Positions 9,600 through 51,287 of a DNA stretch of 64,000 bases are shown here, in pieces. The notes under the pieces are model-generated. The model made no database searches. It saw only the letters and a program-made list of their open reading frames with translations, and was not told where the DNA came from. Every line of letters begins with the position of its first letter. Position 1 is the first letter of the stretch. Position numbers and translations under genes: made by a program. Origin of the DNA: Flavobacteriaceae bacterium LSUCC0859 (GTDB lineage: Bacteria; Bacteroidota; Bacteroidia; Flavobacteriales; Flavobacteriaceae); NCBI GenBank assembly GCA_022239325.1, contig JAKOGP010000005.1:124001-188000 (forward strand). Reading direction: 5' to 3'.

Positions 9600-10568
9600 A
9601 TGTATCACAAAAACAATAATAATGGACTATTGCTTGAGCAAATTTCGAATTATATTAAGCATGCGCCTTATAGAAGAATAAAAAGAAGTGGTTCACTAGG
9701 ATTATCTGATAATTCAGTTAGAAATCTAATGGTATTTGAGAAGCTGATTAAAGATTTCGAAAAGCACATAGGAAATCAAATTATGTTAAATGCTATAGAT
9801 CACATGTTAGTTAATAAGTTTAAAGAATGGCTTTTAACTGAAAAAAGCTATTCTTTAAATAATGCTGGACTTCAACTAAAGCTGTTAAAAATGATTTGTA
9901 AGGAGGCGGAAAGAATGAGTATTCCCGTTAATCCATATACAAGACATATTGAATCATTTACTCAAAAAAGTAGGGATAGAGTGCTTCAAACTATTTCTTT
10001 TGAAGAAATAAAAAAGATTAAATCCCTTAAAGAGTTACCCTCAACACTTGAAAATGCTAGAAAATGGATGCTAATTGGTTTATATATAGGTCAAAGAGTT
10101 TCTGATTTGTTAATTCTAAATCCTTTACAATTAAGATTTGTTGAGCATGGTGTTTATGTAGATATTACGCAACAAAAAACAGATAAAAATGTCACTATTG
10201 GAGTGGTAGATCCTGACGTAATTAAAATTTTGCAATACAAATTTCCTTATAATATTTCAGCACAATTATTTAATAGACAAATAAAACATGTATGTCAAAT
10301 TGCTGGAATAAATGAGATGGTAAGTGGTTATAAATTATGCTCTAAAACAAGAAGAAAAAAATTGGGTACACACCCAAAATCAAGCATAATTTCTTCTCAT
10401 GATTTAAGAAGATCGTTTGCTACGAATTACTTTGGGAAAATTGAAACGCCTATTCTTATGCAAATCACTGGTCACTCTAAAGAAAGTACGTTTTTAAGTT
10501 ATATTGGAACACAGGTAAACAAAGACACTTATGCAGATGCTTTTATGAAAGTTGCTGCTACTTTGTAG
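9600..10568 (+). CDS. Tyrosine recombinase (orphan paralog at edge of polysaccharide island)
   Basis: A 322-residue tyrosine recombinase. The N-terminal half (residues ~10-110) is an SAM-like core-binding domain. The C-terminal catalytic domain shows the Arg of YIGQRVSDLL, the HDLRRSFATN box, the GHSKESTFLSYIG segment with second His and nucleophilic Tyr. It is a clear paralog of the three recombinases at 41.5, 45.3 and 49.3 kb, sharing the KIETPILMxxTGHS stretch, but is the most diverged and AT-rich. Unlike them it has no adjacent lipoprotein cassette and no TGGTCTA core close by. It is the only plus-strand gene in the polysaccharide locus and its 3' end overlaps the next, convergent gene by 11 bases. 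It may be a remnant of island acquisition or act in trans on the lipoprotein sites. Confidence 0.9.
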   Translation: MYHKNNNNGLLLEQISNYIKHAPYRRIKRSGSLGLSDNSVRNLMVFEKLIKDFEKHIGNQIMLNAIDHMLVNKFKEWLLTEKSYSLNNAGLQLKLLKMICKEAERMSIPVNPYTRHIESFTQKSRDRVLQTISFEEIKKIKSLKELPSTLENARKWMLIGLYIGQRVSDLLILNPLQLRFVEHGVYVDITQQKTDKNVTIGVVDPDVIKILQYKFPYNISAQLFNRQIKHVCQIAGINEMVSGYKLCSKTRRKKLGTHPKSSIISSHDLRRSFATNYFGKIETPILMQITGHSKESTFLSYIGTQVNKDTYADAFMKVAATL

Positions 10569-36212: not shown

Positions 36213-36728
36213 TTACTCATTTTTATTAAATAAAATAAGCTCATCGGCGTTAAGCCTGTGACTAGCTGATAAAAAGAAAGCAACCTTTCTGTTTATGAGC
36301 TTTTCAAGCTTCTCCTCTAGGTTTGTAACGTAGGAGGTGTTTAAATCCTGGCCTACTACGATTATTTCAATTTTACCACTATCAATGCCTTTGGCGTAGT
36401 TGCCAATTAGAATAATCTGCTCCACGTCTCCCATTCGCTCTAAGACAACCTCTACTGTATCTTCAAGTCCAAGGTGTTTGAGAATGACTTTTTGCAATAC
36501 AGAGAACATGGGGTGCTTTGTGTTGGCTTTATATTGTATTTTATTGTTGGTTTTTTCTTTTTGAAGGTAACCTGCGTTGTGTAAGTGATTGAGTTCCTTA
36601 CGGATGGCGTTTGTAGATTCGCCCATCTCCGTAGCTAGACCGTTTAAATAACCTCGATTGGCCTGCGATACAAAGAATTTGATCAACAGGCGCAATCTTG
36701 TTTTTGAGGTTATCAATTCACCTAGCAC
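36213..36728 (-). CDS. Winged-helix regulator with nucleotidyltransferase-like C-terminus
   Basis: 171 residues starting at a GTG codon (MLGELITSKTRLRLL). Residues ~1-75 form an ArsR-like winged helix (RLRLLIKFFVSQANRGYLNGLATEMGE with the recognition region NAIRKELNHLHNAGYL). The C-terminal half (IILIGNYAKGIDSGKIEIIVVGQDLN) resembles a MNT-type nucleotidyltransferase fold, though the usual G-S...D-x-D residues are replaced (GNYAKGIDSGKIEI). Regulators of this build head polysaccharide loci in Flavobacteriia. It is the first gene of the long minus-strand run and probably controls it, binding the palindromes just upstream of its own start. Confidence 0.78.
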   Translation of the reverse strand: MLGELITSKTRLRLLIKFFVSQANRGYLNGLATEMGESTNAIRKELNHLHNAGYLQKEKTNNKIQYKANTKHPMFSVLQKVILKHLGLEDTVEVVLERMGDVEQIILIGNYAKGIDSGKIEIIVVGQDLNTSYVTNLEEKLEKLINRKVAFFLSASHRLNADELILFNKNE

Positions 36729-36740
36729 TTACTAATAATT

Positions 36741-36775
36741 TGAATTACTTATTTTCAAGTAATAAAAGTACTTAA
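36741..36775 (-). promoter_or_regulatory. Palindromic operator upstream of the HTH regulator gene
   Basis: Between the GTG start and the next gene lies a perfect dyad, ATTACTT (36744-36750) and AAGTAAT (36757-36763), followed at once by the 8-base palindrome AAGTACTT (36766-36773). The ACTT/AAGT half-site thus recurs four times in 30 bases, fitting a dimeric winged-helix protein. Autoregulation of the HTH gene, and with it the polysaccharide operon, is inferred. No clear TAnnTTTG promoter element is seen within it. Confidence 0.5.
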
Positions 36776-36795
36776 TCTTATGTTTTTAAGCAAAT

Positions 36796-37689
36796 TTAAT
36801 GGGCTTTTCTTCTGTAAAATTGATCTTGAAATTTACCGCCCTCTAGAGGTACATTTCTAAATATAAGTGTTTCTAGTGAATCACTGTAAAAAACTGGAAA
36901 TGATAAAATTGGTTTTGAAGGTTTGCTTTTGAAAAAAAAATTAAATGTGTCTTTAGTGATGGTAAATAAATATTCGTCACCAGAATTTGACTCTACTAAA
37001 TTTTTTGATTTAAAGATGTAATGAAGTGTTGTATCTCTTATGATTTGTTTTGGAAAATTATACACTCTTTCCCAGTGGCCAGTAAGTTCCTTAGGCGAAA
37101 TAGATCGTTGGTCTTCATACTCAGTAACCAAGAAACTCAACTTAACTTTATTAAAAGATTCGTAGAACCTTTGAAAATAGTTAGTATTAGCTTTTAATTT
37201 GCTTGGTAGATAGTTATATGCATTTATCAATGAAGTTGTATCTCTAACCTTTTCAAGTACGTCTAAATATGTATTGTAATGATCCAGATTTTTAGGCCAG
37301 CCTTCAAAAGCGCTTTTAGCAAAAGGGAGCGCATCTGTAAACTCATTTTGATAAATTAATACTTTTGCTTTTAAATAATCTCCGATTCTAACATGAGGAT
37401 TAATTTCAATCGCTTTAGATATAAAATTGTCTGTTTCTGACAATCTCCCCTCATTTAAAAGATAATTTACCCTATAAACATCCAAAGGCATTGCAGTAAT
37501 AGTAACGTTAGGTATACTTGGCAGCAAGGCATTAATCGTGTCAAATTTAAGCTGCATTCCACTTGGATTTTTTAAGTCACTTAATATTTTATTTTGAATA
37601 ACGTGAGAGCTAAACACTTGATAATTTATAAATATAGAAGCAAGCAGGAATAGATAAATAAGGAAATATAAAACTTTCTTAATTTTCAT
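36796..37689 (-). CDS. Membrane-anchored TPR-like protein paired with the O-antigen ligase
   Basis: A 297-residue protein with one N-terminal membrane helix (VLYFLIYLFLLASIFINYQVF) and an outward helical domain. Segments such as VDVYRVNYLLNEGRLSE-like, FISKAIEINPHVRIGDYLKA and VLIYQNEFTDALPFAKSAFE read as TPR-type helix pairs (residues ~80-150). The C-terminal third is beta-rich. It overlaps the ligase gene by 11 bases. Many Wzy_C proteins carry fused periplasmic TPRs; here the TPR part may be a separate partner. No firm family. Confidence 0.6.
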   Translation of the reverse strand: MKIKKVLYFLIYLFLLASIFINYQVFSSHVIQNKILSDLKNPSGMQLKFDTINALLPSIPNVTITAMPLDVYRVNYLLNEGRLSETDNFISKAIEINPHVRIGDYLKAKVLIYQNEFTDALPFAKSAFEGWPKNLDHYNTYLDVLEKVRDTTSLINAYNYLPSKLKANTNYFQRFYESFNKVKLSFLVTEYEDQRSISPKELTGHWERVYNFPKQIIRDTTLHYIFKSKNLVESNSGDEYLFTITKDTFNFFFKSKPSKPILSFPVFYSDSLETLIFRNVPLEGGKFQDQFYRRKAH

Positions 37690-38932
37690 TAGAAAAAGCT
37701 TGAATGTTAATAATGAGAGAGAGAATTACCATAAACATAACTTGCATTATTGGTCGTTCAAAAGGAAAGTTTAAAGACGCATCTATTAAATATGCTGAAA
37801 GTGAACAAAATAGGACTACTACATTAAAAGGTTGAGATTTAATGTAAAGCAACAATCTTTTGTAGGAATAAAAAAAGATCAACAAAAATAAAATTCCACC
37901 AACTAGACCAAGTTCAGTTGTGTACTCAAGAAAATCATTGTGGGCATGAAATGGTACTAAATAGTTTTCACCCAAAGAACCCCAATACATAGAAGATTCG
38001 ACTTTCCAATTTCCCAAACCAGCTCCAATGAAAGGGTTATTATATATGTAATCTAAGGCATTTGACCACAATTCAAACCTGTTACTACTAGATTCATTAG
38101 TAACTCTGATCTGTGAGACTTTAGTAATTGCAGACTTATTTGAAGCAGGTAGAATATTTAATGATAAAAAATATGATAAAAAGGTTGGAATAAAAATGAA
38201 GAAAAAAAGAAATAAATACCTGATTTTCTTTGTGATATGGAGCTTAAAAATTAAATAAAAGAATAATATAATTAATATTAAAAGTAGTGATAATAATGCT
38301 GCTCTTGAGTTAATTAGAAACAAAACAAGTGTTGGCATTAAAACAAAAAAAGAATAAAGTATTCTAGGGATTATTTTTTTTGTTTGGACAATCAGATGAA
38401 AAATAAAAGGAATTTTTACTACAATTGAGGCTGTAGTAATATTTCGATTGCCCGTAACGCCCTTAAAAGCATCTACATTTAAAGTGTCAATATTAAAAAT
38501 AAGCATTCCATTATCAATAAACTCAATTATTAGTGGACTCAAAGAAAAAAAAGATTCAATAATACATGATAAAGCAATAAGAATTGAGACTACATAAAAC
38601 TTAAGTTGAAAATTTTTAAACAAACTAGACAAAACAAAAAGGCCAACCAAGACATTAATTAGTCTAAAAAAATCATGAGCCCAAAGGGTCAAGTTTATTG
38701 CGTAAAGAAAAGAGAAAAAGGAAAATATAGAAAAAAAAGAAAAAACACTTAGCACTGAGCTTTTAACTTCAAAAACTGGCAATTTAAAGAATAAAAAACT
38801 TGTTAAAAGTATTGTATTCAATATGCTAAGATACAACCATTGTGGTCCCGCAAAATCGACCGCACCAAAAAGAGGTATTAAAAAAACAAAAAGATAAAGG
38901 CCTAAAAGTGAATAAGGGAAAAATGTTTTCAT
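37679..38932 (-). CDS. O-antigen ligase/polymerase (Wzy_C family)
   Basis: A 417-residue polytopic membrane protein with about ten helices. The periplasmic loop has the family signature: NRFELWSNALDYIYNNPFIG, GAGLGNWKVES and FHAHNDFLEYTTELGLVGG. It either joins glycan to lipid A-core or protein, or polymerises repeat units; WaaL and Wzy cannot be separated from sequence. Its ATG directly follows the T-run of the terminator behind the lipoprotein cassette on the same strand, leaving no room for a separate promoter or ribosome site. Expression may therefore depend on readthrough or an internal promoter. Confidence 0.88.
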   Translation of the reverse strand: MKTFFPYSLLGLYLFVFLIPLFGAVDFAGPQWLYLSILNTILLTSFLFFKLPVFEVKSSVLSVFSFFSIFSFFSFLYAINLTLWAHDFFRLINVLVGLFVLSSLFKNFQLKFYVVSILIALSCIIESFFSLSPLIIEFIDNGMLIFNIDTLNVDAFKGVTGNRNITTASIVVKIPFIFHLIVQTKKIIPRILYSFFVLMPTLVLFLINSRAALLSLLLILIILFFYLIFKLHITKKIRYLFLFFFIFIPTFLSYFLSLNILPASNKSAITKVSQIRVTNESSSNRFELWSNALDYIYNNPFIGAGLGNWKVESSMYWGSLGENYLVPFHAHNDFLEYTTELGLVGGILFLLIFFYSYKRLLLYIKSQPFNVVVLFCSLSAYLIDASLNFPFERPIMQVMFMVILSLIINIQAFSNEN

Positions 38933-38984: not shown

Positions 38985-41432
38985 TTACGAAGCTAACTTA
39001 GAGCTAAAGTTTACACTTTTTCTAGCAATAGAATCAGCATTTGTTTGACCAGTTCCATCTTTAGCATCTACCCATTTCTCGTCATCTCCAACTAGATTAC
39101 CGGCACCTGTATTAATACCACTAGCAGTAAGAATTGTAGCAGTACCGTTTGTAAAAGTAACTGTTTTTGCTCCTGCTACACCAGCTGCAGTAGATTTGAA
39201 AGTAACGTAAGCAGAACCTACATCTCCAGTATTGTCACCTAACACAATAGAAGCTGAATTAAAACCTAGGGATGTTGTAGAAGCTACTGAACCACTTAAG
39301 GCATAAACATCTAAATCAAAAGTAAAGACTGATTTTTGAGAACCTTTTGCTAGTGAAGTAAAGTCTAATTTAGATAAACCAGTTCCTGTACCAGTAGCAA
39401 CAGAATAATATTTAGAAGCAACACCAGTTCCAGCATCTAAAGCAGTTTTGAATGCAGTAGCAATTTCTGCAATAGAAGAAGCAGAACCTGAAGTAACAGA
39501 AACCGCAGCTCCATCTCCTGCATCTAAAACATAAACACCTGATACATTGGTAAGTCCTTTAAACTCGATAGAAGCTGTATTAACACCTTTACCGTAACCA
39601 TCAATAGCTACACCAACACTTGAAAGTTGAGCCGCTGTACCTGCATCTGCAGCCCAGTTTGCAACATCATAGTATAAACTTAAACCTGTACTTGGTATGA
39701 TTGATACAATATCGTCACCAACTTGAATTCCATTATTAGAATCTGTACCATCAAGTCCTGTAATTAACATTTCTCTTACCTGACTTACACCACCAACAGC
39801 GTTTGATGCTTCATAATCTACATTAGCAATTACACCAGCAGCAGTATCAGCACCAGAAACAGAATCAGTATCGTAAATTAAGTCTGTTGCAGCAACTGTT
39901 AAGTCTTCTACACCAGCAGCAGTAATTGTTTTTCCAATATTATCTGCTTTTACAACTACAGAACCTGCAGTTCCAATCTGACCAGCTGCATCAGCAATAA
40001 AGTCAGACAAAGGTTCGAAGTCTGCAGAAGTAATTACGTGAGCAACAACTGGAGATGTTCCAGGTAGTTGAATAGATTCGATAGTTAAGTCATTAGATTG
40101 AATATCTACTACAGCAGCGGTAGCAGCACCAACGTCATTTAAAGCAGCAAAACTTATTGTATCTAATTCACTGTTGTTCTTTACAATCAATTTGTGAAGA
40201 CCATCAACATTATCAGCAGTAAGGGAAGTTAAATCAGAATTTCCACTAACTTCTAATGAACCTTTAGCAGCTGATGTATATGGAATATCCAATGTAGACA
40301 GATCAGTTCCAGCAACCTTAACATTTAAAGCTGTGCCATCAAAAGTTAATGAAGTTAAATCAGAACCTGAAGATATAGTTACATTAGAAAAAGTACCACC
40401 TAAAATCAAAGTCTCTAATCTAGAAGAACTAGAAGTAACATTTAAATGCTGTGCAGTTGTTACAGAAGTTTTTGTTGAAGCTGCAGCAACAATATGAACA
40501 GAAGTTGCTCTGTCAAATACTGTATCTATAGCAATTGTAGCTCCTGCTGCTTTACCTGGATTTACAGAAGGCAAAACAACAGTGTCTGCTTTCGCAAAAG
40601 AAGATGAAGCAGATAAAGATTCCCATTTAGGTAAGTCTACTGAAGTAAGTGCATCTGCCACAATATCACCTTTAGCAAAAACAGGGGCAATAAGAGTAGA
40701 TGCATTAACTATTGTTAAAGACTCAAATGTAGTAGCAGCAGTACCGTCTACTTTAGTTAGGTTCGTGAAAGCAGAAAGATTTACTGAAGCATTGTCTGCA
40801 GTAGTAATAGAAATAGCAGAATCATAAGCAGTTAATGCAGATAAATCTACACTTGTTGCTTTTGCAAAACTTAGAGAACCTAATCCTGAAGTTGCATGAG
40901 TGAGTGCCGGTAAAGATACAGATGTAGTAAAGTCATCCCCAGATAAACTCAAAGCGCCTGTAGATTTTAATGCTGGCAATGAAATATCACCAGATTGGTT
41001 TATGGTAACGTTTTTAGCTCCGTTCAACTGAGTGAATACTCCTTGTGTAGTTGAACTTGCAGTAGCTGTATAAGTAACAGTTCCAGTAACAGAAACCATT
41101 TTAGCCATTAATGAAGCAACATCAGCGTCATTCATTGTAGAAGTATGAGTGATGTGAACTCCTCCGTTAATGATTGAAACCTTATCACCTAAAGCAAGAG
41201 CAAAGTCTAATTCTGACTGACTTGAAACTGTAAGAATAGATCCTGTTGGAGCATATATGTTATTTTGTGCTAGCAACTCGTCTAAATCTACTTGTTGAGC
41301 AGCCAAAGCAGTAGCTAAAGCAGCTACTTCGTCTGCAGTTGCAGCATTTGCCAATGCAGCTTGTAACTCGGCTACAGAAGCAGCTAAAGTTTCAAGTGAC
41401 GACTCTAGACCAGGGTCAGACCCAAAACACAA
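38985..41432 (-). CDS. Silent C-terminal cassette L of the switchable lipoprotein
   Basis: An 815-codon open frame without promoter, ATG start or signal peptide; the first in-frame start-like codon is a TTG at 41432. After the recombination core (encoding GLES at residues 8-11) come an Ala-rich coiled coil (AASVAELQAALANAATADEV), a conserved region ending in DKVSIINGGVHITHTS, then an LRR/solenoid-like set of short repeats (LTSLTADNVDGLHKLIVKNN) and a ~300-residue C-terminal domain. The first ~115 residues match the expressed protein at 42973-45150 and cassette R; the rest diverges. Joined to the expressed 5' end by inversion it would give an ~884-residue lipoprotein in frame. It could alternatively be a broken copy, but the intact frame over 2.4 kb argues against decay. 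Confidence 0.8.
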   Translation of the reverse strand: MCFGSDPGLESSLETLAASVAELQAALANAATADEVAALATALAAQQVDLDELLAQNNIYAPTGSILTVSSQSELDFALALGDKVSIINGGVHITHTSTMNDADVASLMAKMVSVTGTVTYTATASSTTQGVFTQLNGAKNVTINQSGDISLPALKSTGALSLSGDDFTTSVSLPALTHATSGLGSLSFAKATSVDLSALTAYDSAISITTADNASVNLSAFTNLTKVDGTAATTFESLTIVNASTLIAPVFAKGDIVADALTSVDLPKWESLSASSSFAKADTVVLPSVNPGKAAGATIAIDTVFDRATSVHIVAAASTKTSVTTAQHLNVTSSSSRLETLILGGTFSNVTISSGSDLTSLTFDGTALNVKVAGTDLSTLDIPYTSAAKGSLEVSGNSDLTSLTADNVDGLHKLIVKNNSELDTISFAALNDVGAATAAVVDIQSNDLTIESIQLPGTSPVVAHVITSADFEPLSDFIADAAGQIGTAGSVVVKADNIGKTITAAGVEDLTVAATDLIYDTDSVSGADTAAGVIANVDYEASNAVGGVSQVREMLITGLDGTDSNNGIQVGDDIVSIIPSTGLSLYYDVANWAADAGTAAQLSSVGVAIDGYGKGVNTASIEFKGLTNVSGVYVLDAGDGAAVSVTSGSASSIAEIATAFKTALDAGTGVASKYYSVATGTGTGLSKLDFTSLAKGSQKSVFTFDLDVYALSGSVASTTSLGFNSASIVLGDNTGDVGSAYVTFKSTAAGVAGAKTVTFTNGTATILTASGINTGAGNLVGDDEKWVDAKDGTGQTNADSIARKSVNFSSKLAS
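41398..41420 (-). other. Recombination site L (minus orientation)
   Basis: On the minus strand: TCTGACCC, core TGGTCTA (41406-41412), GAGTCGTC. The two arms match at only 4 of 8 positions as an inverted repeat. The core has the same reading phase (xxT GGT CTA) as in sites M and R. The left arm instead pairs with the right arm of site M, evidence of a past exchange between the two sites. Confidence 0.75.
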
Positions 41433-41446
41433 ACAATAAACTTCAC

Positions 41447-41482
41447 AAAAAAAGCCTGTAATGCTATGTATTACAGGCTTTT
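41447..41482 (-). terminator. Terminator between recombinase 1 and silent cassette L
   Basis: An 11-bp perfect stem AAGCCTGTAAT/ATTACAGGCTT (41452-41462, 41470-41480) with a 7-base loop and, on the minus strand, seven T. It stops recombinase transcripts before they reach cassette L, keeping that cassette silent. The A/T flanks also allow bidirectional action. It travels with the invertible segment. Confidence 0.88.
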
Positions 41483-41501
41483 AAAGGCTAATTAAAAATT
41501 T

Positions 41502-42515
41502 TTATTGTGCTACTGCCCTGGCATAACCTTCGCTAAAACTTTGTTTTTCTTGTATTTTGAGCACCCCAGACATGAAAATATCGGCGTAGGCGTCCCTGTT
41601 GTTGTTTCTTCCAATATAACTTAAAAAAGTACTCTCCCTTGAGTGGCCAGTCATGTTCATGAGAATAGGGGTTTCAATCTTACCAAAGAAGTTGGTGGCA
41701 AAGGACCTACGTAAGTCATGGGAAGAAATTACCTGGTATTTGGGGAACAAGCCAATTTCTTTTCTCTTGCTTTCTGGATTGTATTGGTAGCCCTTAACTT
41801 CTTCATTTATCCCTGCCATTTCTAGGACCTCCTTCATATATCTATTAAAACATCTATCGCTTATACGCCTGGGAAAATCCAATTTAATAATTTCCACAGC
41901 TAAGGGGTTTATAACTCCTACAGTTACCGCAGTTCGTGTCTTTTTTTGTAAAATGTCTACATATACCCCACCATTAGCTGCGGTTCTAATATCTAACTTG
42001 GTCAATGCCAGTAAATCCGAGACCCTTTGGCCCAACCAAAAGCCTATAACAATCCATTTTCTGGTGTTTTCAAGACGTTCAGAAGGCAGTCTAATTTGCT
42101 GAATTTTTTCGAGATCTGAAAAGGTGAGTATGTTAATGAGCTTATCTTGCCTAGATTGTGCAAAACCGGACACATAATTGGTGTAGGGGTGTACCGCAAT
42201 ATCATTTTTCTTGGCGTCTACACAAATAGTTTTCAGGGTTCCCATAAGCCTACCTGCATGATTTTCAGAATAATTTTTATCCTGCAAAAGCCACTGTTTA
42301 AAACGATCTACGGTTTTTTTATTGAGGTCTGAAAAATAGAGGGTACCTGAAAAATCAATTTCAAATTCTTTGAAAACAATTCTAAAATTGGTGTAGTTGG
42401 CTATAGCACGTGAAGACAAGCCCACTCTACCGCCACTCATACTTCTAAATTTAGCGTTGGCGATAAAATGGTCTAAGTAAGAAACTATAGACGTATTCAC
42501 AAGGTTTGTACTCAT
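41502..42515 (-). CDS. Tyrosine recombinase 1 of the lipoprotein switch
   Basis: About 337 residues from ATG at 42515; a GTG at 42527 is possible but the ATG aligns with its paralogs. N-terminal core-binding domain (NYTNFRIVFKEFEIDFSGT, FKQWLLQDKNYSENHAG), then the catalytic domain with GFWLGQRVSDLLAL (first Arg), SSHDLRRSFATNFFGKIE (His-x-x-Arg) and MTGHSRESTFLSYIG (His and Tyr). All catalytic residues are present, so it should be active. It lies inside the predicted invertible segment, transcribed toward site L and away from the lipoprotein promoter. It is the best candidate for the invertase. Confidence 0.93.
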   Translation of the reverse strand: MSTNLVNTSIVSYLDHFIANAKFRSMSGGRVGLSSRAIANYTNFRIVFKEFEIDFSGTLYFSDLNKKTVDRFKQWLLQDKNYSENHAGRLMGTLKTICVDAKKNDIAVHPYTNYVSGFAQSRQDKLINILTFSDLEKIQQIRLPSERLENTRKWIVIGFWLGQRVSDLLALTKLDIRTAANGGVYVDILQKKTRTAVTVGVINPLAVEIIKLDFPRRISDRCFNRYMKEVLEMAGINEEVKGYQYNPESKRKEIGLFPKYQVISSHDLRRSFATNFFGKIETPILMNMTGHSRESTFLSYIGRNNNRDAYADIFMSGVLKIQEKQSFSEGYARAVAQ

Positions 42516-42527
42516 AAGCTGGGGCAC

Positions 42528-42972
42528 AGCTTAGGCAAAATAAGTAGCAAGATGTATTGGGGATTGCAAATGTAAGAAAAAAACTACAAAACTTTACAAA
42601 AAAGTGCTCATAATGCTAATTCACAACAATTTGACATCAATTATTGCATAATATTTTTAGTATGATAAAAAAAAATGTAGCTTTGAGTATTAATAGGGTA
42701 TACAGTCCCTTTTTGGAAATTTATACAGCGAAACTACTGTTTCTTTAGCCGATGGATATTAACCACTCGTCTATAGATATACGGTATTTCGTCGAAAAAG
42801 TGAAAACGACCAATGCTTAGTTTCACACTTTTGCACGGTATACATGTTCCCAAATTGTACCTGTATTCGAATTTAACTAATGACTATGAACCAAAAACGC
42901 ATTACTAATCAAATTTTAACACAAGAACTTTCTTTAAATTCAACACTTAATTACTTATTTAACATTTCAAAC
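42528..42972. promoter_or_regulatory. Divergent control region between recombinase 1 and the lipoprotein
   Basis: No gene, but dense structure. A TAGCTTTG element (42678-42685, plus strand) is a candidate -7 box for the lipoprotein, with only a weak -33 match, and implies a ~285-base leader. Dyads: GAAAC-tact-GTTTC (near 42730) and AAAGTG/CACTTT arms (42797-42802, 42826-42831). ACGGTAT is repeated at 42781 and 42835. A short in-frame extension upstream of the lipoprotein (from 42880) has no signal peptide and is taken as leader. Regulator or recombinase-helper binding is inferred. Confidence 0.5.
42567..42600 (-). promoter_or_regulatory. Promoter of recombinase 1
   Basis: On the minus strand the perfect Bacteroidota -7 element TACATTTG (42567-42574) is preceded, after 22 bases, by TTTG (42597-42600), within the spacing reported for Flavobacteriia. 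It lies about 50 bases before the ATG at 42515. A CTTTACAAA motif (42592-42600) shared with the recombinase at 9600 overlaps the -33 end. Confidence 0.6.
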
Positions 42973-45150
42973 ATGAAAAAACTATTTTCTTACTTATTAA
43001 TTTCGTCCATGGTGGTTTTGTCATCATGTACAAACTACGACGATCAATTTGATGATCTGAACTCACAGATAAATAGCTTGAAAGGCCAGATTGAAGGTTT
43101 TTCTTCTTTATCTTCAGGATTAACTGCTTTACAAGGAACTGTAGCTTCTTTACAGTCTGCTGTAGCTAACATTCCTGTAACTCCTGCAACTGACATCTCT
43201 GGTCTAGAGTCAGACCTAGATGCATTAAGCTCTGGATTAGAGGCAGTTACAACTAAGCTTGCAGAATTAGAAGCCGCTTTGGCTAACGCTTCTACAGCTG
43301 CTGAGGTTGCAGCTTTGCAAACCGCTTTAACAGCTGCACAGGCAGATATTACTACCATCTTAGAAAATAATAATGTTTATACAGGTGATTTAAGCATCAC
43401 TAATACTGCTGAATTAGCTTTTGCCACTGCCCTAGGTGACAAAGTAGCTATCATTAACGGTAATGTTGTGGTAACTGTAGACAGTGATGACTTAGACGCT
43501 GAAGCAGTTTCTGCTGTAACTTCAAAAATAGCTTCTGTAGTTGGAAGTGTAACAGTTACTACAGACGCTTCTCTAGATTTTTCTGCCCTAACTGCAGTAA
43601 GTTCCTCTTATTCAGTTACTGGTCATGATGTAGATGACGCTGCTTTAGCTTCTGCTAACGGAGTTACTTTAAACTACAATGGTGCATATACACAACCTGC
43701 TTTAGTAACAGCTGGTGCCGTAACCATCACAAACAAAACATCTACGGTAACAGGTACAATTGCTGTAGACTTTTCAGGATTAACCTCAGGATCTGTTAAC
43801 AGCGGTACTTTATCTTTAGATTCTGCTGCTTCTGTTAAAATTGGATCTGGAGCTGCTATTGTTTCTTTAACTGCGCCAAAAGCCTTAGAGGTTGAATTGC
43901 ACAATGCTGGAACTCTAGCTTCTTTAACTATAGACACAGCTTCTGCAACATCTGTTGTAGTAAAAGCTACAAAAGTAACTGGAGCCACTACGGTAACAGC
44001 TACCTCTGCAGTATCTTTTCCAAGTGCAACTGATGTAGCTGCATTAACTGTTTCTGCTGGTTCTTTTTCTGCACCTTTATTAACAGATGCTGCTGCAACT
44101 ACAGTTAACGCAGACGAAATTACTTTAACAGCACTTGAAACTTTAAGCGCTGCAGCTTCTTTTGACACAGAAGCCCTAAGTGTTCCTGCTTTAAAAACAG
44201 CAGCTGCTTTAACAATAAGCACTTTAGACGCTGTTGCTCTTCCTGCTTTAGAAACTGCTGGTGTTATTACTGCAGACAATGCAGTAACTTTTAATGCTGG
44301 GGTTCTCGTAACTTCTGCTGCTATCAATACCGCTTCTGCTACTACTGTAGTATTAGGTTCTGCTACTGCTTCACATATTGCAGACTTAGCTACTGTAAAA
44401 GAATTGACATTAAACAACCAAGCTACTGCTTTTGCTGTTGGAACTGCAGCGGAACTTACTAGCTTAACTATAAATGGAAAATCTGCATCTACAACTAGTG
44501 TAACTGTTGGAAACGCTGCTAAATTAGCTACTATTTCATTAACAGGTAAGTTTGCTTCTGCTAGCGTAGAAGGTGCTTTAGCTAAATTAGAGTCTTTAAG
44601 CACAGCAGGTACTATTGAATCTTTAACTGTATCTGGAACAACTAAATTGGCTGCCGTAGATTTCGCTCACACTTCTGCAGATGTGTCTACCCTTAAAGTG
44701 GTAAACAATGCTAAATTAGGATCACTTACAACAAGTACAGACTATCTTGCAGAATTAACAGTTACAGGTAACAATGTATTAACTGCTGCAGATTTCTCTT
44801 CATATGCCAATGTAATAAACGATACTGCTGCAACTGCTTCTGTAACCATAGCAATAGGGACAAACTCACTAACTGCTACATTTACTCCTGCAACAGCTGC
44901 AAGTGGTGCTACTGCTTTTGCAGAAGCTACTATTGTTTCTGCCTCTTTAGGAAGTTTATCTGCTTACATCCAAGATGTATATGATGTAGACCCAGCTATG
45001 ATCTCATTATCATTAGATCCTGCTGCTACTACTAAAGGAACTTCTGTAGCTGCGTTTAGTACTCAAAACGCAACAGCAGTAACAGGTTCTGATTTACCAG
45101 CCGGTGCAATTGCAAGTGAAGAAGCCAATGCGCTTATCACTGCCAACTAA
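42973..45150 (+). CDS. Expressed switchable surface lipoprotein (constant 5' end + cassette M)
   Basis: 725 residues. MKKLFSYLLISSMVVLSSC is a complete lipoprotein signal; acidic residues right after the Cys (TNYDDQFDD) resemble the surface-export signal of Bacteroidota lipoproteins. A heptad coiled coil (LNSQINSLKGQIEGFSSL) follows to residue 76, where the GLES core begins. Beyond it comes cassette M: a second coiled coil (LAELEAALANASTAAEV), the conserved NNNVYTGDLS...ALGDKVAIINGN block, and an Ala/Thr/Val-rich solenoid of short repeats to the end. It lacks the extra C-terminal domain of cassettes L and R and any T9SS sorting motif. Start chosen at 42973 for the signal peptide; the frame opens earlier at 42880. 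The ligand is unknown; probably an adhesin or antigen. Confidence 0.85.
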   Translation: MKKLFSYLLISSMVVLSSCTNYDDQFDDLNSQINSLKGQIEGFSSLSSGLTALQGTVASLQSAVANIPVTPATDISGLESDLDALSSGLEAVTTKLAELEAALANASTAAEVAALQTALTAAQADITTILENNNVYTGDLSITNTAELAFATALGDKVAIINGNVVVTVDSDDLDAEAVSAVTSKIASVVGSVTVTTDASLDFSALTAVSSSYSVTGHDVDDAALASANGVTLNYNGAYTQPALVTAGAVTITNKTSTVTGTIAVDFSGLTSGSVNSGTLSLDSAASVKIGSGAAIVSLTAPKALEVELHNAGTLASLTIDTASATSVVVKATKVTGATTVTATSAVSFPSATDVAALTVSAGSFSAPLLTDAAATTVNADEITLTALETLSAAASFDTEALSVPALKTAAALTISTLDAVALPALETAGVITADNAVTFNAGVLVTSAAINTASATTVVLGSATASHIADLATVKELTLNNQATAFAVGTAAELTSLTINGKSASTTSVTVGNAAKLATISLTGKFASASVEGALAKLESLSTAGTIESLTVSGTTKLAAVDFAHTSADVSTLKVVNNAKLGSLTTSTDYLAELTVTGNNVLTAADFSSYANVINDTAATASVTIAIGTNSLTATFTPATAASGATAFAEATIVSASLGSLSAYIQDVYDVDPAMISLSLDPAATTKGTSVAAFSTQNATAVTGSDLPAGAIASEEANALITAN
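43192..43214 (+). other. Recombination site M (plus orientation)
   Basis: GACATCTC, core TGGTCTA (43200-43206), GAGTCAGA. As an inverted repeat the arms match at only 3 of 8 positions. The left arm pairs 6/8 with the right arm of site L and the right arm pairs 7/8 (9/10 when extended to GGTCTGACYC) with the left arm of site L. It lies in the coding frame at codons 74-81, encoding D-I-S-G-L-E-S-D. Confidence 0.78.
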
Positions 45151-45194
45151 GAGTAATTAAGTTTGAATGAAACACTCTGTGTAGTGTATATAAA

Positions 45195-45224
45195 AGACCC
45201 TCCAATTGGAGGGTCTTTTTTTTT
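45195..45224 (+). terminator. Terminator after cassette M
   Basis: AGACCCTCC-AATT-GGAGGGTCT (45195-45216), a perfect 9-bp stem followed by nine T. It ends the lipoprotein transcript 45 bases after the stop and separates it from recombinase 2. Confidence 0.93.
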
Positions 45225-45337
45225 GTGATGTTGGTCTATATTAGGGTGTTATTAATCTAAAATTATTACTTAATAGATTAATTTTTAGTAACTTAAATTA
45301 AGTTAAAGGATTCCCAAATCTAATAAACTTACTTACT

Positions 45338-46312
45338 ATGCAAACAATTAAAAAACAAGTTAGCATAGCATCTTATATGGCTGTTTTTATAGAAAATGCT
45401 CAATACCAAGTGGTAAAGGGCGGGCAGTTAGGACTCAGTAAAAGAGCGCTTTCCAACTATAAAAACTTTGCCAAAATAATGGCTGCTTATGACACTTATC
45501 AAAAGAAAAAATGGTGCTTTAATGAGATAAGTGCGCAGAGCGTACATGCGTTTAAGCAATATCTGTTAGAAAAGAAAAAATACAGTCTAAACCACGCTGG
45601 ACGGATCATGGGCTTTTTAAAAACCGTTTGTAAAACGGCAGCCAATTACCAGATAGACACTGGAAACGCTACCCATCTCATTGCAGGATTTTCAAAACCT
45701 CAGCAAGATAAAATAATTCACACCATCAGTTTTGAGGAATACCAGCGGATTATAGCCATAGATTACAGAAAGAATGACCGCCTAAACAACGCCAGAAAAT
45801 GGCTCATTATAGGTTTTTGGATAGGGCAACGTGTTTCTGATTTACTAAAGCTTAGCCCAGACCAATGTAGACCTGCCCCTAATGGAGGTATCTATATAGA
45901 TGTAGTACAACAAAAAACAAAAAAACGAGTAACTCTTGGAGTCATAGACCCCCTAGCCCTCAAAATTATAAACCAACAATTTCCAAGAACCATTGGAGCA
46001 CGATGCTTTAACAGATATATGAAAGAAATCTGCAAAGACGCTGGACTCACTCAAATGGTCCAAGGTTACAAGATGAACCCAGAGACCAAAAGAAAAGAAG
46101 AGGGTGTATTTCCCAAATACGAGCTGCTCTCTTCACATGACCTCAGACGTTCCTTTGCCACTAACTTCTTTGGGAAAATAGAAACTCCAGTACTCATGCA
46201 AATGACAGGGCACTCCAGAGAAAGTACTTTTTTGTCTTATATAGGAGTTGGAGAAAATAAAGACCTCTATGCCAACAGTTTTATGGAAGGTTTAAAAGAA
46301 ATAAAAATTTAA
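45338..46312 (+). CDS. Tyrosine recombinase 2 of the lipoprotein switch
   Basis: 324 residues, same family as recombinase 1: core-binding part NYKNFAKIMAAYDTYQKKK and FKQYLLEKKKYSLNHAG, catalytic GFWIGQRVSDLLKL, SSHDLRRSFATNFFGKIE and MTGHSRESTFLSYIG, with Arg, His-x-x-Arg, His and Tyr intact. It lies between cassette M and site R, transcribed toward cassette R, repeating the recombinase-site-cassette order seen at site L. Only AT-rich weak hairpins, not a strong terminator, separate it from site R. Upstream, ATTCCCAAATCTAATAAA (from 45310) resembles a stretch before recombinase 3 (from 49166) and may be a shared promoter or binding element. Confidence 0.93.
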   Translation: MQTIKKQVSIASYMAVFIENAQYQVVKGGQLGLSKRALSNYKNFAKIMAAYDTYQKKKWCFNEISAQSVHAFKQYLLEKKKYSLNHAGRIMGFLKTVCKTAANYQIDTGNATHLIAGFSKPQQDKIIHTISFEEYQRIIAIDYRKNDRLNNARKWLIIGFWIGQRVSDLLKLSPDQCRPAPNGGIYIDVVQQKTKKRVTLGVIDPLALKIINQQFPRTIGARCFNRYMKEICKDAGLTQMVQGYKMNPETKRKEEGVFPKYELLSSHDLRRSFATNFFGKIETPVLMQMTGHSRESTFLSYIGVGENKDLYANSFMEGLKEIKI

Positions 46313-46337
46313 ATTTTATTTTAAAATTGTAAATGAA

Positions 46338-46385
46338 TTCTTACAATCATAACTATTTAATTATCAATATGTAAGAAAATACTTA
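46338..46385. repeat. Inverted repeats next to site R
   Basis: TTCTTACA (46338-46345) and TGTAAGAA (46370-46377) form a perfect 8-bp inverted repeat; GTAAG (46371-46375) also pairs with CTTAC (46381-46385), ending just before site R. TGTAAGAAAA recurs in the promoter of recombinase 1. They may be accessory binding sites that order the synaptic complex. Confidence 0.45.
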
Positions 46386-46408
46386 CCGGATTCTGGTCTA
46401 GAATCCGG
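46386..46408 (+). other. Recombination site R (plus orientation, fully symmetric)
   Basis: CCGGATTC, core TGGTCTA (46394-46400), GAATCCGG: 8/8 matching inverted arms around the 7-bp core, a textbook tyrosine-recombinase site. It is a direct repeat of site M and inverted relative to site L. Its perfect symmetry suggests that its two halves have not been exchanged with the others in this genome. Confidence 0.8.
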
Positions 46409-46418
46409 ACAGGCTGCA

Positions 46419-49019
46419 TTGACCGCTGCACTAGAAGCTTTAGCTACTAGATTAACTACATTAGAGACTGATTTAGCTGGTGCTGCAACCGCTGCTGAAG
46501 TTACTGCTTTACAAACAGCTTTAGCTGCTGCACAAGCAGACTTAACTGAGTTATTAGCTTCTAATAATGTATATTCTAATGATCTTACTATTAATTCTCA
46601 GGCTACTTTAGATGTAGCTAAGAGTTTAGGAGGGAAGTTAGCTATCATTAACGGAGGTGTAACCATTACTCAATCCTCTTCTATGGATGCAGAAGATTTG
46701 CAAGCTGTGGTAGATGTAATGGTGACAGTTACAGGAAATGTAACTTACACTATGGCTGTTAACGGTTCTACTCAGGCAGTATTTAATAATTTAACATCAG
46801 TTGGTGGTCTTAATCTAGATGTATCTGGAGCTATTAACTTCCCTGAATTACAGAATGCTGGCGCTGTTGTATTAGATGACACCCACAAAAACTACGTAAC
46901 TTCTGTAGAGTTTCCAAAGCTTTCTAAAGTTACAAGCTTTAAAACTGGGTCAGATGCTAACACTATTAAATTCTCAAAAGCTACCGCTATCACTTTATCA
47001 GAATTAGCTAATTATGAAAACGCAAGTTTGACTTTGGAAGGTAAATTAGATTTTACTTTAGACTTAGCAAAATTGACTTCAAAAACAGCTGCTGGTGTTA
47101 AAAACCCAATTAATTTAACAATCAAAGGAGCAAAAGAAGTGACTTTACCAGAGTTTACAAGTGGTAAAGTTATTGCAGATTCTTCTGAAAAAGTAGTATT
47201 GGCTAAATATGAGGGTAACATAGGAGATAGCTTTGCTAAAACTGAATACCTTCATTTAGAAGTATACGAAGAAGACTATACTTCAAGCTCAACTTCTTTG
47301 GATACTTTAATATTTGGTGGTGTTGCTGAAAGTTCAGATACAGATAGTGGTGATCACCCAACATTAGATTTAGATGGTGCGTCTGGCTTAACTAACTTAA
47401 CTGTAAAAGGAAAGCTCTATAAACTTTATCTTAAAGGAAATACTTCATTAACAGATGTAGACGTAACAGGAGCTATAAATAGTGTAACTGTTGAAGGTGC
47501 TACTTCTCTTGAGGCTTTAGTTTTAGGTCATACAGGTGCAGCAATTGCAGCTGATAAAGATGAGGCAGATTTAACAATCAAAGGTAATACTGAACTTGCC
47601 TCTTTAACTGTAGACGCATTAGTTAATGCTGCAGATCTTACTATTACTGGCAACACTTCTTTAGAGACTATTAGTTTTGCTAAATTAGCTGGAATTGGTG
47701 TAGACGCAGTACCAGTTGTAGATGTTAGCAATAACAACTTAACCGCATCTGTGGTTGAAAAAGATACCAACGGTTCTACTGATGCTGTTACAGCTGCAGG
47801 AGGTACTGGGTCCATTACTACTACTTCTGGAATGGATGATTTAAAAGCATATTTAGGTGCTGCTGCAACAAAAGCTGCTGCAACTGCTGGTGCTTCTGTT
47901 TATGCTTCATTTGACACTGTAGAAACTTATATTGACACTGCAGATGCACAAACTGGACCATTCAACTTTACGGTAGGTGCTAAAGGTCAAGGGAATAATG
48001 TATATACTGAGATTGTATATATAAGTCCTGCAGAAGGGGCTGATAAGTTTCCAAACAGAACTTCTTATATAATTAAAGATTTAATGGATGGTAGTGATGA
48101 CAAAATTACTATTGCTGCAAATGGTGGGACTGTAAGTTATACAAAAGATGCCACTACAGAAACAGCAAGTGAATTTGTTTCTAGAGTGGTAGATACTGAT
48201 GCACTTTCAGCAAATAGTGTTGGTCTTACAAAACTTACTGGAATTAACAAACATCTTGATTTAACATTTACAACAGATGATGCCACTGCTGCACAGGGTG
48301 CATACACTGCAACTTTACTAATTGGATCTACTGGTTATTCCTCTGCGGTAGTAACCCCAACTTCTTATACAAACGGAAAAGTAGAAATCTTAGTTGCAGC
48401 ATCTTCAGGGAATGCAGCATCTGACGATGCAACAGCTTTTGCTACAGCCTTTAATGACAAAACAAAAGTTAAAGTATACACCTATACTGCTAGTGGGACA
48501 TACACAACAACAACTGTTGATTATACATCAATGTATAAAGCAACTGCTGCAGGTGGAATTGTGACGCTTCAACCATTAAAAACTGTTTACACTTCTGCAA
48601 CTGCAACAGAAACAGTTATTGATTTAACCTCAGGTGCAAGAAATTTACCAGTCTACACACTCTTCACAGATTTAGTTCCTGCAACAAGTACACCAAATAC
48701 AACAAATGTACCAACAATTGCTACTTCAATTGCTAAATCAGATTTTGGAATTACAGTGACAGATGAATTATATGGGACTTCTAATACATTTATTGCAAGT
48801 GGAAGTGAGGCTGTTTCAATGGCAGATGGAGCTACAACCACTATTGCAACAGCTGTAATAGCAAAAATAAATGAGGATTCTACTTATGATAGTACAGACG
48901 GAACTAGAGAATACCATAAAACTGGAGTTCCTTATTCAAATACACTTACAAGAGTAGAAGAAGTTGATAAAGACAATGGTGTTTCTGCCAACAAGAAAAA
49001 CATCACTTCGTGGCTATAA
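46419..49019 (+). CDS. Silent C-terminal cassette R of the switchable lipoprotein
   Basis: An 866-codon frame whose first start-like codon is TTG at 46419; in frame it opens at 46353 and runs through site R (S-G-L-E-S), with no ATG, signal peptide or visible promoter. Order: Ala-rich coiled coil (LEALATRLTTLETDLAGA), the conserved block SNNVYSNDLT...LGGKLAIINGGVTIT, LRR/solenoid repeats (LTSLTVDALVNAADLTITGN-like) to about residue 460, then a ~400-residue Thr-rich C-terminal region in two or three domains. Fusion to the expressed 5' end would give ~950 residues in frame. It is the longest of the three alternatives. Confidence 0.8.
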   Translation: MTAALEALATRLTTLETDLAGAATAAEVTALQTALAAAQADLTELLASNNVYSNDLTINSQATLDVAKSLGGKLAIINGGVTITQSSSMDAEDLQAVVDVMVTVTGNVTYTMAVNGSTQAVFNNLTSVGGLNLDVSGAINFPELQNAGAVVLDDTHKNYVTSVEFPKLSKVTSFKTGSDANTIKFSKATAITLSELANYENASLTLEGKLDFTLDLAKLTSKTAAGVKNPINLTIKGAKEVTLPEFTSGKVIADSSEKVVLAKYEGNIGDSFAKTEYLHLEVYEEDYTSSSTSLDTLIFGGVAESSDTDSGDHPTLDLDGASGLTNLTVKGKLYKLYLKGNTSLTDVDVTGAINSVTVEGATSLEALVLGHTGAAIAADKDEADLTIKGNTELASLTVDALVNAADLTITGNTSLETISFAKLAGIGVDAVPVVDVSNNNLTASVVEKDTNGSTDAVTAAGGTGSITTTSGMDDLKAYLGAAATKAAATAGASVYASFDTVETYIDTADAQTGPFNFTVGAKGQGNNVYTEIVYISPAEGADKFPNRTSYIIKDLMDGSDDKITIAANGGTVSYTKDATTETASEFVSRVVDTDALSANSVGLTKLTGINKHLDLTFTTDDATAAQGAYTATLLIGSTGYSSAVVTPTSYTNGKVEILVAASSGNAASDDATAFATAFNDKTKVKVYTYTASGTYTTTTVDYTSMYKATAAGGIVTLQPLKTVYTSATATETVIDLTSGARNLPVYTLFTDLVPATSTPNTTNVPTIATSIAKSDFGITVTDELYGTSNTFIASGSEAVSMADGATTTIATAVIAKINEDSTYDSTDGTREYHKTGVPYSNTLTRVEEVDKDNGVSANKKNITSWL

Positions 49020-49021
49020 TC

Positions 49022-49037
49022 TCTAGAATATTCTAGA
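49022..49037. repeat. Perfect 16-bp palindrome after cassette R
   Basis: TCTAGAATATTCTAGA starts two bases after the stop codon of cassette R. Each half contains TCTAGAAT, which is also the right part of site R (core plus arm). It could be a vestigial or secondary recombinase-binding site, or coincidence. Confidence 0.4.
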
Positions 49038-49062
49038 AATAACCCATAGTCATCTACAAAAT

Positions 49063-49090
49063 GGTGCCACCCGAAAGGGTGGCATCTTTT
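49063..49090 (+). terminator. Terminator after cassette R
   Basis: TGCCACCC-GAAA-GGGTGGCA (49065-49084): an 8-bp stem with a stable GNRA loop followed by a T-rich run. A silent cassette keeping its own strong terminator fits the idea that it is a transcribed gene in another configuration. Confidence 0.88.
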
Positions 49091-49192
49091 GTTTTAAAAC
49101 ATTTATAATTAATTGTTTAAAACAATGCATTTAAATTAAAGATTTAAGGTAAAATGCATTAAAAATTCCCAAAATCTTATAAATAGTCAAAA

Positions 49193-49228
49193 TGTATTGA
49201 GAGTAATTCACTAGATACCCTCAATACA
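49193..49228. repeat. Inverted repeat upstream of recombinase 3
   Basis: TGTATTGAG (49193-49201) and CTCAATACA (49220-49228) form a perfect 9-bp inverted repeat around an 18-base spacer, 80-110 bases before the recombinase start. Likely an operator or accessory site; not seen before the other recombinases. Confidence 0.5.
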
Positions 49229-49305
49229 ATAAGTGTAAAATAAAACCTACTTGTTTTTTAAAAGCCATACAATTGTGGCGTGGTAAGCAACTAAAAACAA
49301 GTAAA

Positions 49306-50280
49306 ATGAAAAATGACATTAAAATACTGGCATTCTTAGACGTGTTTATTAGAACCATTACCGTTAGAGAAGCTAACAACGGCCAAATAGGGCTAAAACA
49401 AAAATCGGTTAATAATTACCTAGTATTTAAAAAAATGTGGGTGTTATTTGAAGCCTACGAGCTCAAAAGCTATCGATTTAGAGATTTAGATAAAACAGTA
49501 GTAGAAGATTTTAAGTTTTGGCTTCTAGAAGAAAAAAACTTTAGTCCCAATACCGCTGGGCGGCACTTTGGTACTCTGAAAACCCTGTGTTCCGAGGCTA
49601 AAAAAAGTGACTATAAAGTACATAAGTACTGCAAATATATAAAGGGCTTTTCCAGACCCAAAGATCAGGAAACAATCAATACCCTGAGTTTAGAGGAGAT
49701 TAGGAAAATCTCAGAGTTGCAATTAGACTCTGAACGCTTAGACAATGCCAGAAGGTGGATTATCCTTGGTGTATGGCTAGGGCAACGGGTTTCCGATCTG
49801 CTCAATATTACCCAAGCAAACATTAGAAAATCCAATGTGGTGGGCTACTATGTAGACCTTACCCAACAAAAAACGGGTCATAAAATTACCATAGGGGTGG
49901 CCAATAAAAATGCCATTCAGATTATAGAAGAAGGCCTGCCTAGAAAGATCAATAGCAAGCTATTTAATGAGTTGCTTAAGGAGGTACTAGCCTTAGCAGG
50001 TGTTACCCAAAAGGTAAAAGGCTATAAATTCAATAAAAAGACCAAACGCAAAGAATTTGGAGAATATAAAAAATGTGAGATCATGGCTTCCCATGATTTA
50101 AGGAGAACCTTTGCTACTAATTTTTACGGAAAAATAGAGACTCCTATTATTATGAGAATGACTGGGCATTCCAGAGAACACAACTTCCTGAGGTATATTG
50201 GAAAAAATGAAGATTTAGATTATGTGGCAGACACCTTTATCTCCAAAGTTAACGCTCTAGAAATGCATACCGCTTCTTAG
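49306..50280 (+). CDS. Tyrosine recombinase 3 of the lipoprotein switch
   Basis: 324 residues from ATG at 49306, equal in length to recombinase 2; the frame is open from a TTG at 49273 but that start lacks support. Catalytic residues are present in GVWLGQRVSDLLNI, ASHDLRRTFATNFYGKIE and MTGHSREHNFLRYIG. It differs from recombinases 1 and 2 around the nucleophile (REHNFLRYIG versus RESTFLSYIG), hinting at a different specificity. It closes the array at the right edge and overlaps the PorP/SprF gene tail-to-tail by four bases. Confidence 0.92.
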   Translation: MKNDIKILAFLDVFIRTITVREANNGQIGLKQKSVNNYLVFKKMWVLFEAYELKSYRFRDLDKTVVEDFKFWLLEEKNFSPNTAGRHFGTLKTLCSEAKKSDYKVHKYCKYIKGFSRPKDQETINTLSLEEIRKISELQLDSERLDNARRWIILGVWLGQRVSDLLNITQANIRKSNVVGYYVDLTQQKTGHKITIGVANKNAIQIIEEGLPRKINSKLFNELLKEVLALAGVTQKVKGYKFNKKTKRKEFGEYKKCEIMASHDLRRTFATNFYGKIETPIIMRMTGHSREHNFLRYIGKNEDLDYVADTFISKVNALEMHTAS

Positions 50281-51287
50281 TAAAACCTAGAAAAATCGCG
50301 GCGGTTGCGGTCTCTGAATGGAGAGAGGTCAAAGTTTACAAAAATCTCGAAGGCGTTGGGAGCTGCGGCTTGGCTGGCGCCCATGGGAAGAGAGTAATTA
50401 AAACCAATGTCTAAGGCCTCTATTTTCATGCCGGCAGAGACGCCAAGCTGGAACAGATTAAAACCGTTTAAACTAGACACATGCTCATTAATTCCAATAG
50501 AAATATTGGCTAATATGAGTTCTTGGTATAGATCTACCCGGGTGTTGGGTCCCTGGCGGCTTACATTGTTAAACAAATAGAGATAGGAATAAGAGGGTAA
50601 CCTCCCCTGCTGGTAACGGTTAAGGTTAAACTCATAGGCAAATTGAGCCCCAATGAGCATGTCTAAACTTATGGCTACCTCCGAGAGCTCCGTAGAGGTT
50701 TTAGGCTTGTTAATATGCCTGATAGAGAGTCCATAGGCCATATTGTAGTCATTATGAGCCATAAAAGAGGCTCCAAAGTCTATGAAGCCCATATTGTCTG
50801 TGGCACTTATAGGATCTATAGTTTGGGTGTTTACCTGGCCGCTTAGAATATCTATTTGGTCTGAAAAGACCAAATTGGTGTAGTCATACATAAAGCCTCC
50901 ATAGCCAGCACTTACTCCAGGGTAAAAGGTCCAATTATTTTCTAACTGAAGCTTGTAAATATAGCTGAGCTTGAGCATAGAATTGTTAAAACCAGAATTG
51001 TCTAACCTAGAATTCATATACTCTATACCCAATTGAAAGTCATAGTTATCAAAGAAGGTAGTGGCGTAGGCGTACTGATGCTGGGACACATTATTGTCCT
51101 GAGCGCTAGCAAACTCACTCACTACCCCAATTTTAGAAGGATCTTTAAAGCTAAAAAAACTAGCATTTACCGAATGGGGTAGGTTGCTCATATTGTGAAT
51201 AAAGCGGTCTTGAGCTTGTACCACAAAGGTTTGTAGCCCAAAAAGGCATAACCCTACAATCAGATATGTGGTTTTTAATGTGCTCAT
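50277..51287 (-). CDS. PorP/SprF family type IX secretion-associated outer membrane protein
   Basis: 336 residues with a signal peptide (TTYLIVGLCLFGLQTF, then VVQAQ) and the PorP/SprF hallmark pattern after it: DRFIHNMSNLPHSVNASF, alternating beta-strands with GVSAGYGGFMYDYTN and MGFIDFGASFMAHNDYNMAY. Such proteins are membrane partners for secreting or anchoring the giant T9SS protein encoded directly upstream, as SprF serves SprB in gliding. The stop of the giant gene and this ATG share one base (TAATG), a strong sign of translational coupling. Confidence 0.9.
   Translation of the reverse strand: MSTLKTTYLIVGLCLFGLQTFVVQAQDRFIHNMSNLPHSVNASFFSFKDPSKIGVVSEFASAQDNNVSQHQYAYATTFFDNYDFQLGIEYMNSRLDNSGFNNSMLKLSYIYKLQLENNWTFYPGVSAGYGGFMYDYTNLVFSDQIDILSGQVNTQTIDPISATDNMGFIDFGASFMAHNDYNMAYGLSIRHINKPKTSTELSEVAISLDMLIGAQFAYEFNLNRYQQGRLPSYSYLYLFNNVSRQGPNTRVDLYQELILANISIGINEHVSSLNGFNLFQLGVSAGMKIEALDIGFNYSLPMGASQAAAPNAFEIFVNFDLSPFRDRNRRDFSRFY

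Follow-up and report, generated by a model that had tools for sequence, protein, structure and literature searches.

The array of surface-protein and recombinase genes in the 64-kb stretch of DNA analysed here (the window) contains three sites, L, M, and R, with a common 7-bp spacer, TGGTCTA, which raises the question of whether the arms flanking these spacers preserve the history of a DNA inversion. The first-pass annotation took the poorly matched arms of sites L and M as the trace of a past inversion between them, and the present arrangement as the switched state of an older array. The observation is confirmed and proved stronger than first stated, and the swap between L and M is supported; the present copy, however, is probably one phase of a reversible switch rather than a one-off relic. 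The locus is very likely a site-specific inversion switch for a variable surface lipoprotein, captured in the phase that follows an L × M inversion. A more specific model, in which three recombinases with three half-site specificities share one spacer, hybrid arms tell of past exchange, the symmetric arrangement acts as a hub, and one sequence suffices to reveal the current state, is tentative, with the balance tipping slightly against it.

One head and three tails

The array (38985–50280) comprises, in this order, tail L and int1 on the minus strand, followed on the plus strand by a head joined to tail M, then int2, tail R, and int3. The head (42973..43199, plus strand) encodes a lipoprotein signal (MKKLFSYLLISSMVVLSSC) and the first helix of a predicted coiled coil and is the sole copy in the genome. 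It is presently joined to cassette M (43200..45150, plus strand), yielding a protein of 725 aa. The other two tails are silent: cassette L (38985..41412, minus strand), which has no signal peptide of its own and an open frame in phase with site L, and cassette R (46394..49019, plus strand). Both silent tails, of roughly 800–870 codons each, are still open and in frame. A whole-genome search with the head and the first tail domain as query recovered one head and three tails, all of them in the array.

The codons across TGGTCTA-GA have the same phase at sites L, M, and R, and all three head–tail fusions are in frame; those with L and R encode open proteins of 884 aa and 950 aa. The crossover falls into codons 76–78 (S-G-L), which separate the first predicted stalk helix from the second, and the tails are ~54% identical near the site, falling to ~14–36% farther along. 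With one head, several silent tails, and a shared short in-frame site, the locus has the layout of a head-and-tail inversion system of the Vsa-like kind as to mechanism, and its sites have the inverted arrangement needed for tail exchange, site L lying on the minus strand and the other two on the plus strand. Terminator-like hairpins are located 3' of cassettes M (45192..45219, plus strand) and R (49063..49086, plus strand); a third, AAGCCTGTAAT-ACATAGC-ATTACAGGCTT followed by a T run, was recognized from the sequence between int1 and site L (41450..41480, minus strand).

The predicted structure of the surface protein combines a coiled-coil stalk with a beta-rich body, at mixed confidence. A fold search gave no match at E <= 0.001, and comparison with the PDB returned no sequence match and, in the profile search, coiled-coil matches only. 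No homology to a solved S-layer protein was found that would place it among the S-layer lipoproteins of Bacteroidota.

An O-antigen-ligase-like gene lies beyond the left tail (window 36213–38932) and at the corresponding place in other loci (L140, L141, L158, L159; relatives G789 and G794), in some of them followed by a small regulator; it is a conserved edge of the array. On the right, a minus-strand gene (50277–51287) converges on int3, and the flank (50277–63961) encodes a PorP-like protein and a repeat protein of 4224 residues, unlike the TonB-receptor-like and pirin-like genes found there in relatives (L014–L017, L030).

Three recombinases of one family

The recombinase gene int1 (41502..42527, minus strand; Phage_int_SAM_5 and Phage_integrase) is located inside the invertible segment. 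The product of int2 (45338..46312, plus strand) is 53% identical to that of int1, and the product of int3 (49273..50280, plus strand), the final gene of the array, is 42% identical to that of int2. All three possess a SAM-like core-binding domain and an integrase domain matching PF00589, with int2 just under the gathering score (24.6 vs 27.1 bits). The catalytic set R-K-HxxR-H-Y is complete in each of them, and the PF00589 domain with R-K-H-R-H-Y identifies them as tyrosine recombinases. They are not equivalogs of XerC/XerD, because TIGR02225, where it matched, scored only 18.6–26 bits against a cut-off of 329.6. Yet despite scores far below the XerD cut-off, lambda Int, XerA, XerH, and Cre are matched by the fold predicted for int2.

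The fourth member of this recombinase family, int4 (window 9600–10568), borders a polysaccharide gene cluster. Its closest relatives (L018, L020, and L029, with up to 82% identity, and also L022 and L054) occur in similar settings. No convincing inverted repeats were found around this capsule-linked gene.

Arms matched across sites

Site L (minus strand) consists of the left arm TTTTGGGTCTGACCC (41413..41427), the spacer (41406..41412), and the right arm GAGTCGTCACTTGAA (41391..41405). Site M (plus strand) comprises the left arm TGCAACTGACATCTC (43185..43199), the spacer (43200..43206), and the right arm GAGTCAGACCTAGAT (43207..43221), whereas site R (plus strand) comprises ATACTTACCGGATTC (46379..46393), the spacer (46394..46400), and GAATCCGGACAGGCT (46401..46415). 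Arms were compared over 15 bp outward from the spacer, with left arms as reverse complement. Against the right arms of L, M, and R, respectively, the left arm of L matched at 7, 11, and 5 positions, that of M at 11, 5, and 5, and that of R at 5, 7, and 11. The best three of all 15 arm pairs, each with 11/15, are L-left/M-right (GGGTCAGACCCAAAA and GAGTCAGACCTAGAT), M-left/L-right (GAGATGTCAGTTGCA and GAGTCGTCACTTGAA), and R-left/R-right (GAATCCGGTAAGTAT and GAATCCGGACAGGCT; the inner eight positions all match); the remaining left/right pairs reach 5–7/15. The three classes have no sequence in common beyond GAR.

Inversion of the segment 41406–43206 places L-left beside M-right and M-left beside L-right and renders all three sites symmetric; the flipped-back site M would read GGTCTGACCC-TGGTCTA-GAGTCAGACC. 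The scores originally given for the present state (L 4/8, M 3/8, R 8/8) and after the flip (6/8 and 9/10) were reproduced. They mixed windows of 8 and 10 bp, and it is the fixed 15-bp window that brings out the clean one-to-one matching. The middle T of TGGTCTA is the centre of symmetry, with 11 matches there and at most 8 at shifted centres, and the symmetry ends at ~15 bp, as none of the three pairs matches at positions 16–19. Such symmetry would be left by a recombinase footprint of ~13 bp per arm, by analogy with loxP and FRT.

The claim that the joint improvement of two sites by a single flip is hard to explain by chance stands up against a null in which random flanks were taken from this locus with the coding phase preserved. 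The best-pairing sum of 33/45 was reached in none of the 100,000 draws. When the conserved inner 3 bp were omitted (positions 4–15), the matching remained significant (P = 5e-6), as did the swapped L/M pairs (P = 4e-5) and the gain of the swapped over the present state (P = 0.001). The two improvements are unequal: L-left/M-right is strong on its own (P = 0.0009), whereas M-left/L-right is weak by itself (P = 0.016, positions 4–15) and completes the matching.

Homologous recombination is an unlikely cause of the exchange because the block identical between any two sites is only 10–13 bp long. Other copies of TGGTCTA in the 64-kb window lack matching arms and are therefore considered chance occurrences.

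Related arrays in marine Flavobacteriaceae

Recombinases of the same clade are located beside similar tails in several MAGs of marine Flavobacteriaceae, and they group with int1–int3 (support 94/92). In G789 ("Candidatus Arcticimaribacter"), contigs C125 and C156 have exactly 47 bp in common, covering head, spacer, and inner arm, and then continue into different tails. C30 and C46 of G794 behave alike: they diverge after exactly 55 common bp, the last of which is the final base of ACCTCCA, the spacer equivalent. Contig ends that are common over one fixed length indicate a fork in a de Bruijn assembly, which puts the same head on different tails in both relatives; such forks could stem from one switching population or from two strains. 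A further assembly break at a site is seen in L013:1–40, where the contig starts 13 bp before the spacer equivalent.

Five head–tail junctions are readable in these relatives (two in G789, one in G790, two in G794), and in every one of them the head points either away from the tail on the recombinase side or toward the flank with the O-antigen ligase. As far as the contigs can be read, this is the flipped-back orientation of the window. The spacers, as read, differ by lineage (TGGTCTA, AGGTTCA, ACCTCCA, GGATTAC) and agree within one locus. Long symmetric arms are absent from the three relatives with complete sites (L015, L016, and G794; left/right 3–9/15), and the arms of relatives have only an inner GAGT-like motif in common. 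Arm symmetry is therefore not a general signature of such arrays, and the first-pass annotation, which had named relatives without symmetric arms as evidence against its reading, is in part contradicted by them.

Next to the arrays of G789 and G790, a single complete recombinase gene each was detected; in G794, the array-side recombinase is apparently split over two frames. Relatives with just one complete recombinase detected thus show no long arm symmetry, a point against the proposed model. A search for more arrays in the genus and in 400 genomes of the family and 398 of the order yielded mostly isolated or capsule-linked recombinases, and viral contigs scanned with the recombinase profile and two site patterns gave no matches. 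In L015, from the Arcticimaribacter relative, the place of int1 in the invertible segment is taken by a gene for a secreted protein of 463 residues (L015:1327–2718), which we take by eye to be D-Ala-D-Ala-carboxypeptidase-like. Apart from its array, G790 also encodes a complete, stand-alone lipoprotein that belongs to the family of the array's surface proteins (L143:2471–4846).

A probable reversible switch and its alternatives

We propose that tyrosine recombinases connect a single 5' head, which comprises the lipobox and the first stalk helix, to any one of three tails. Each site would be built of an arm of ~13–15 bp, the 7-bp spacer, and a second arm of ~13–15 bp, with the six arms forming three matched classes, as many as there are recombinase genes. 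This agreement, which is one of numbers and not of binding, together with the dissimilarity of the classes beyond GAR, suggests one recombinase per arm class; mixed recombinase complexes may then exchange strands through the common spacer. The head would face cassette L in the symmetric "home" state, and site L would be inverted relative to M and R, so that a single inversion, with no DNA lost, would bring the head to either of these tails. In the phase seen in the window, the head is on M, sites L and M would be hybrids, and site R is untouched. Sites M and R are direct repeats, so that, judging from the coordinates, an exchange between these two would remove tail M together with int2.

The consequences predicted for the flip hold for the most part: the head reads into cassette L, and int1, int2, and int3 all come to lie on the plus strand. 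They do not each precede a cassette, however, because int1 is followed by M and int2 by R, but int3 by none. The order of the two states and the activity of the switch in the sequenced strain are inferred.

The matched arms were likely once neighbours, but binding of both by the same recombinase could also give the match. A given recombinase might bind one left and one right half-site somewhere in the array, without the two ever having been adjacent; the arms would then tell which recombinase binds where and not which state came first. Matching would be expected in either orientation, and as the switch is probably reversible, both states would recur. We consider this explanation rather unlikely, since like arms around one spacer are the simplest route to a symmetric binding site, site R already has such symmetry where it stands, and the relatives show the orientation matching the symmetric state.

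It is improbable that a single recombinase reads the inner GAG/GAR alone and that the outer symmetry is coincidental or due to, for example, template-switch correction of palindromes. The common inner motif of the relatives would agree with this, as would the sites of the R64 shufflon, in which one arm is free to vary (PMC11852207). The symmetry outside the inner bases, however, is far from random, and template-switch correction requires the matched arms to be neighbours, so that it would still record the swap.

Even less probable is a dead remnant, an array past inverting and frozen in its present state. Although there is no direct evidence of inversion in the sequenced strain, continued flipping is favoured by the intact recombinases, the three open tails, and the assembly forks in relatives. 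That the arms match through similar coding of the coiled-coil stalk is very improbable and contradicted by the phase-matched null: although all right arms and the left arm of M are coding and the right arms resemble each other (7–9/15), the left arms of L and R are non-coding, the symmetry relates one strand to the reverse complement of the other and has no link to coding, and in-phase coding stretches reach 11/15 against the right arm of L at only 2 of 2,395 positions.

Comparison with known systems

In the XerC/XerD-dif system, which resolves chromosome dimers, the two arms of the site are bound by two related recombinases, and this resembles the binding by two recombinases proposed for the hybrid sites in the window. 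The Vsa junction lies inside the coding region. Both Vsa of Mycoplasma pulmonis (HvsR) and Vpma of M. agalactiae (Xer1) switch lipoproteins by site-specific inversion (PMC2268961), and like the locus in the window, they combine one expressed 5' end or promoter with silent lipoprotein genes and an adjacent tyrosine recombinase. By contrast, the window contains three paralogous recombinases between its tails and three arm classes; the comparison is one of mechanism, not of sequence.

The sfx sites of R64-type shufflons, which are recombined by Rci to swap protein C-termini, have a nearly identical geometry (12-bp arm, 7-bp spacer, 12-bp arm; PMC11852207). They have one conserved and one free arm and are served by one invertase, whereas both arms are specific in the window and form three matched classes alongside three recombinases, which sets the locus apart from shufflons of this type. 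Artificially symmetric R64 sites allow also excision (PMC11852207). The BT1927 S-layer switch of Bacteroides thetaiotaomicron (PMC12548429) is another case of phase variation of a surface lipoprotein by DNA inversion in Bacteroidota, but there a promoter is inverted to turn expression on or off, whereas the locus in the window switches a coding head between tails.

Head-and-tail inversion switches are of a known kind, but this variant is unusual: in the inversion switches compared here, one recombinase acts on like sites, whereas the locus in the window combines a common spacer with matched, class-specific arms. If the model is correct, it would show how several recombinases cooperate in one array, and it would provide a natural set of candidate orthogonal pairs of recombinases and half-sites. 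The state of a switch and its switching history would then be inferable from assemblies alone. No account of such switching in marine Flavobacteriaceae turned up in a limited literature search, and the locus would add surface-protein switching of the head-and-tail type to this group.
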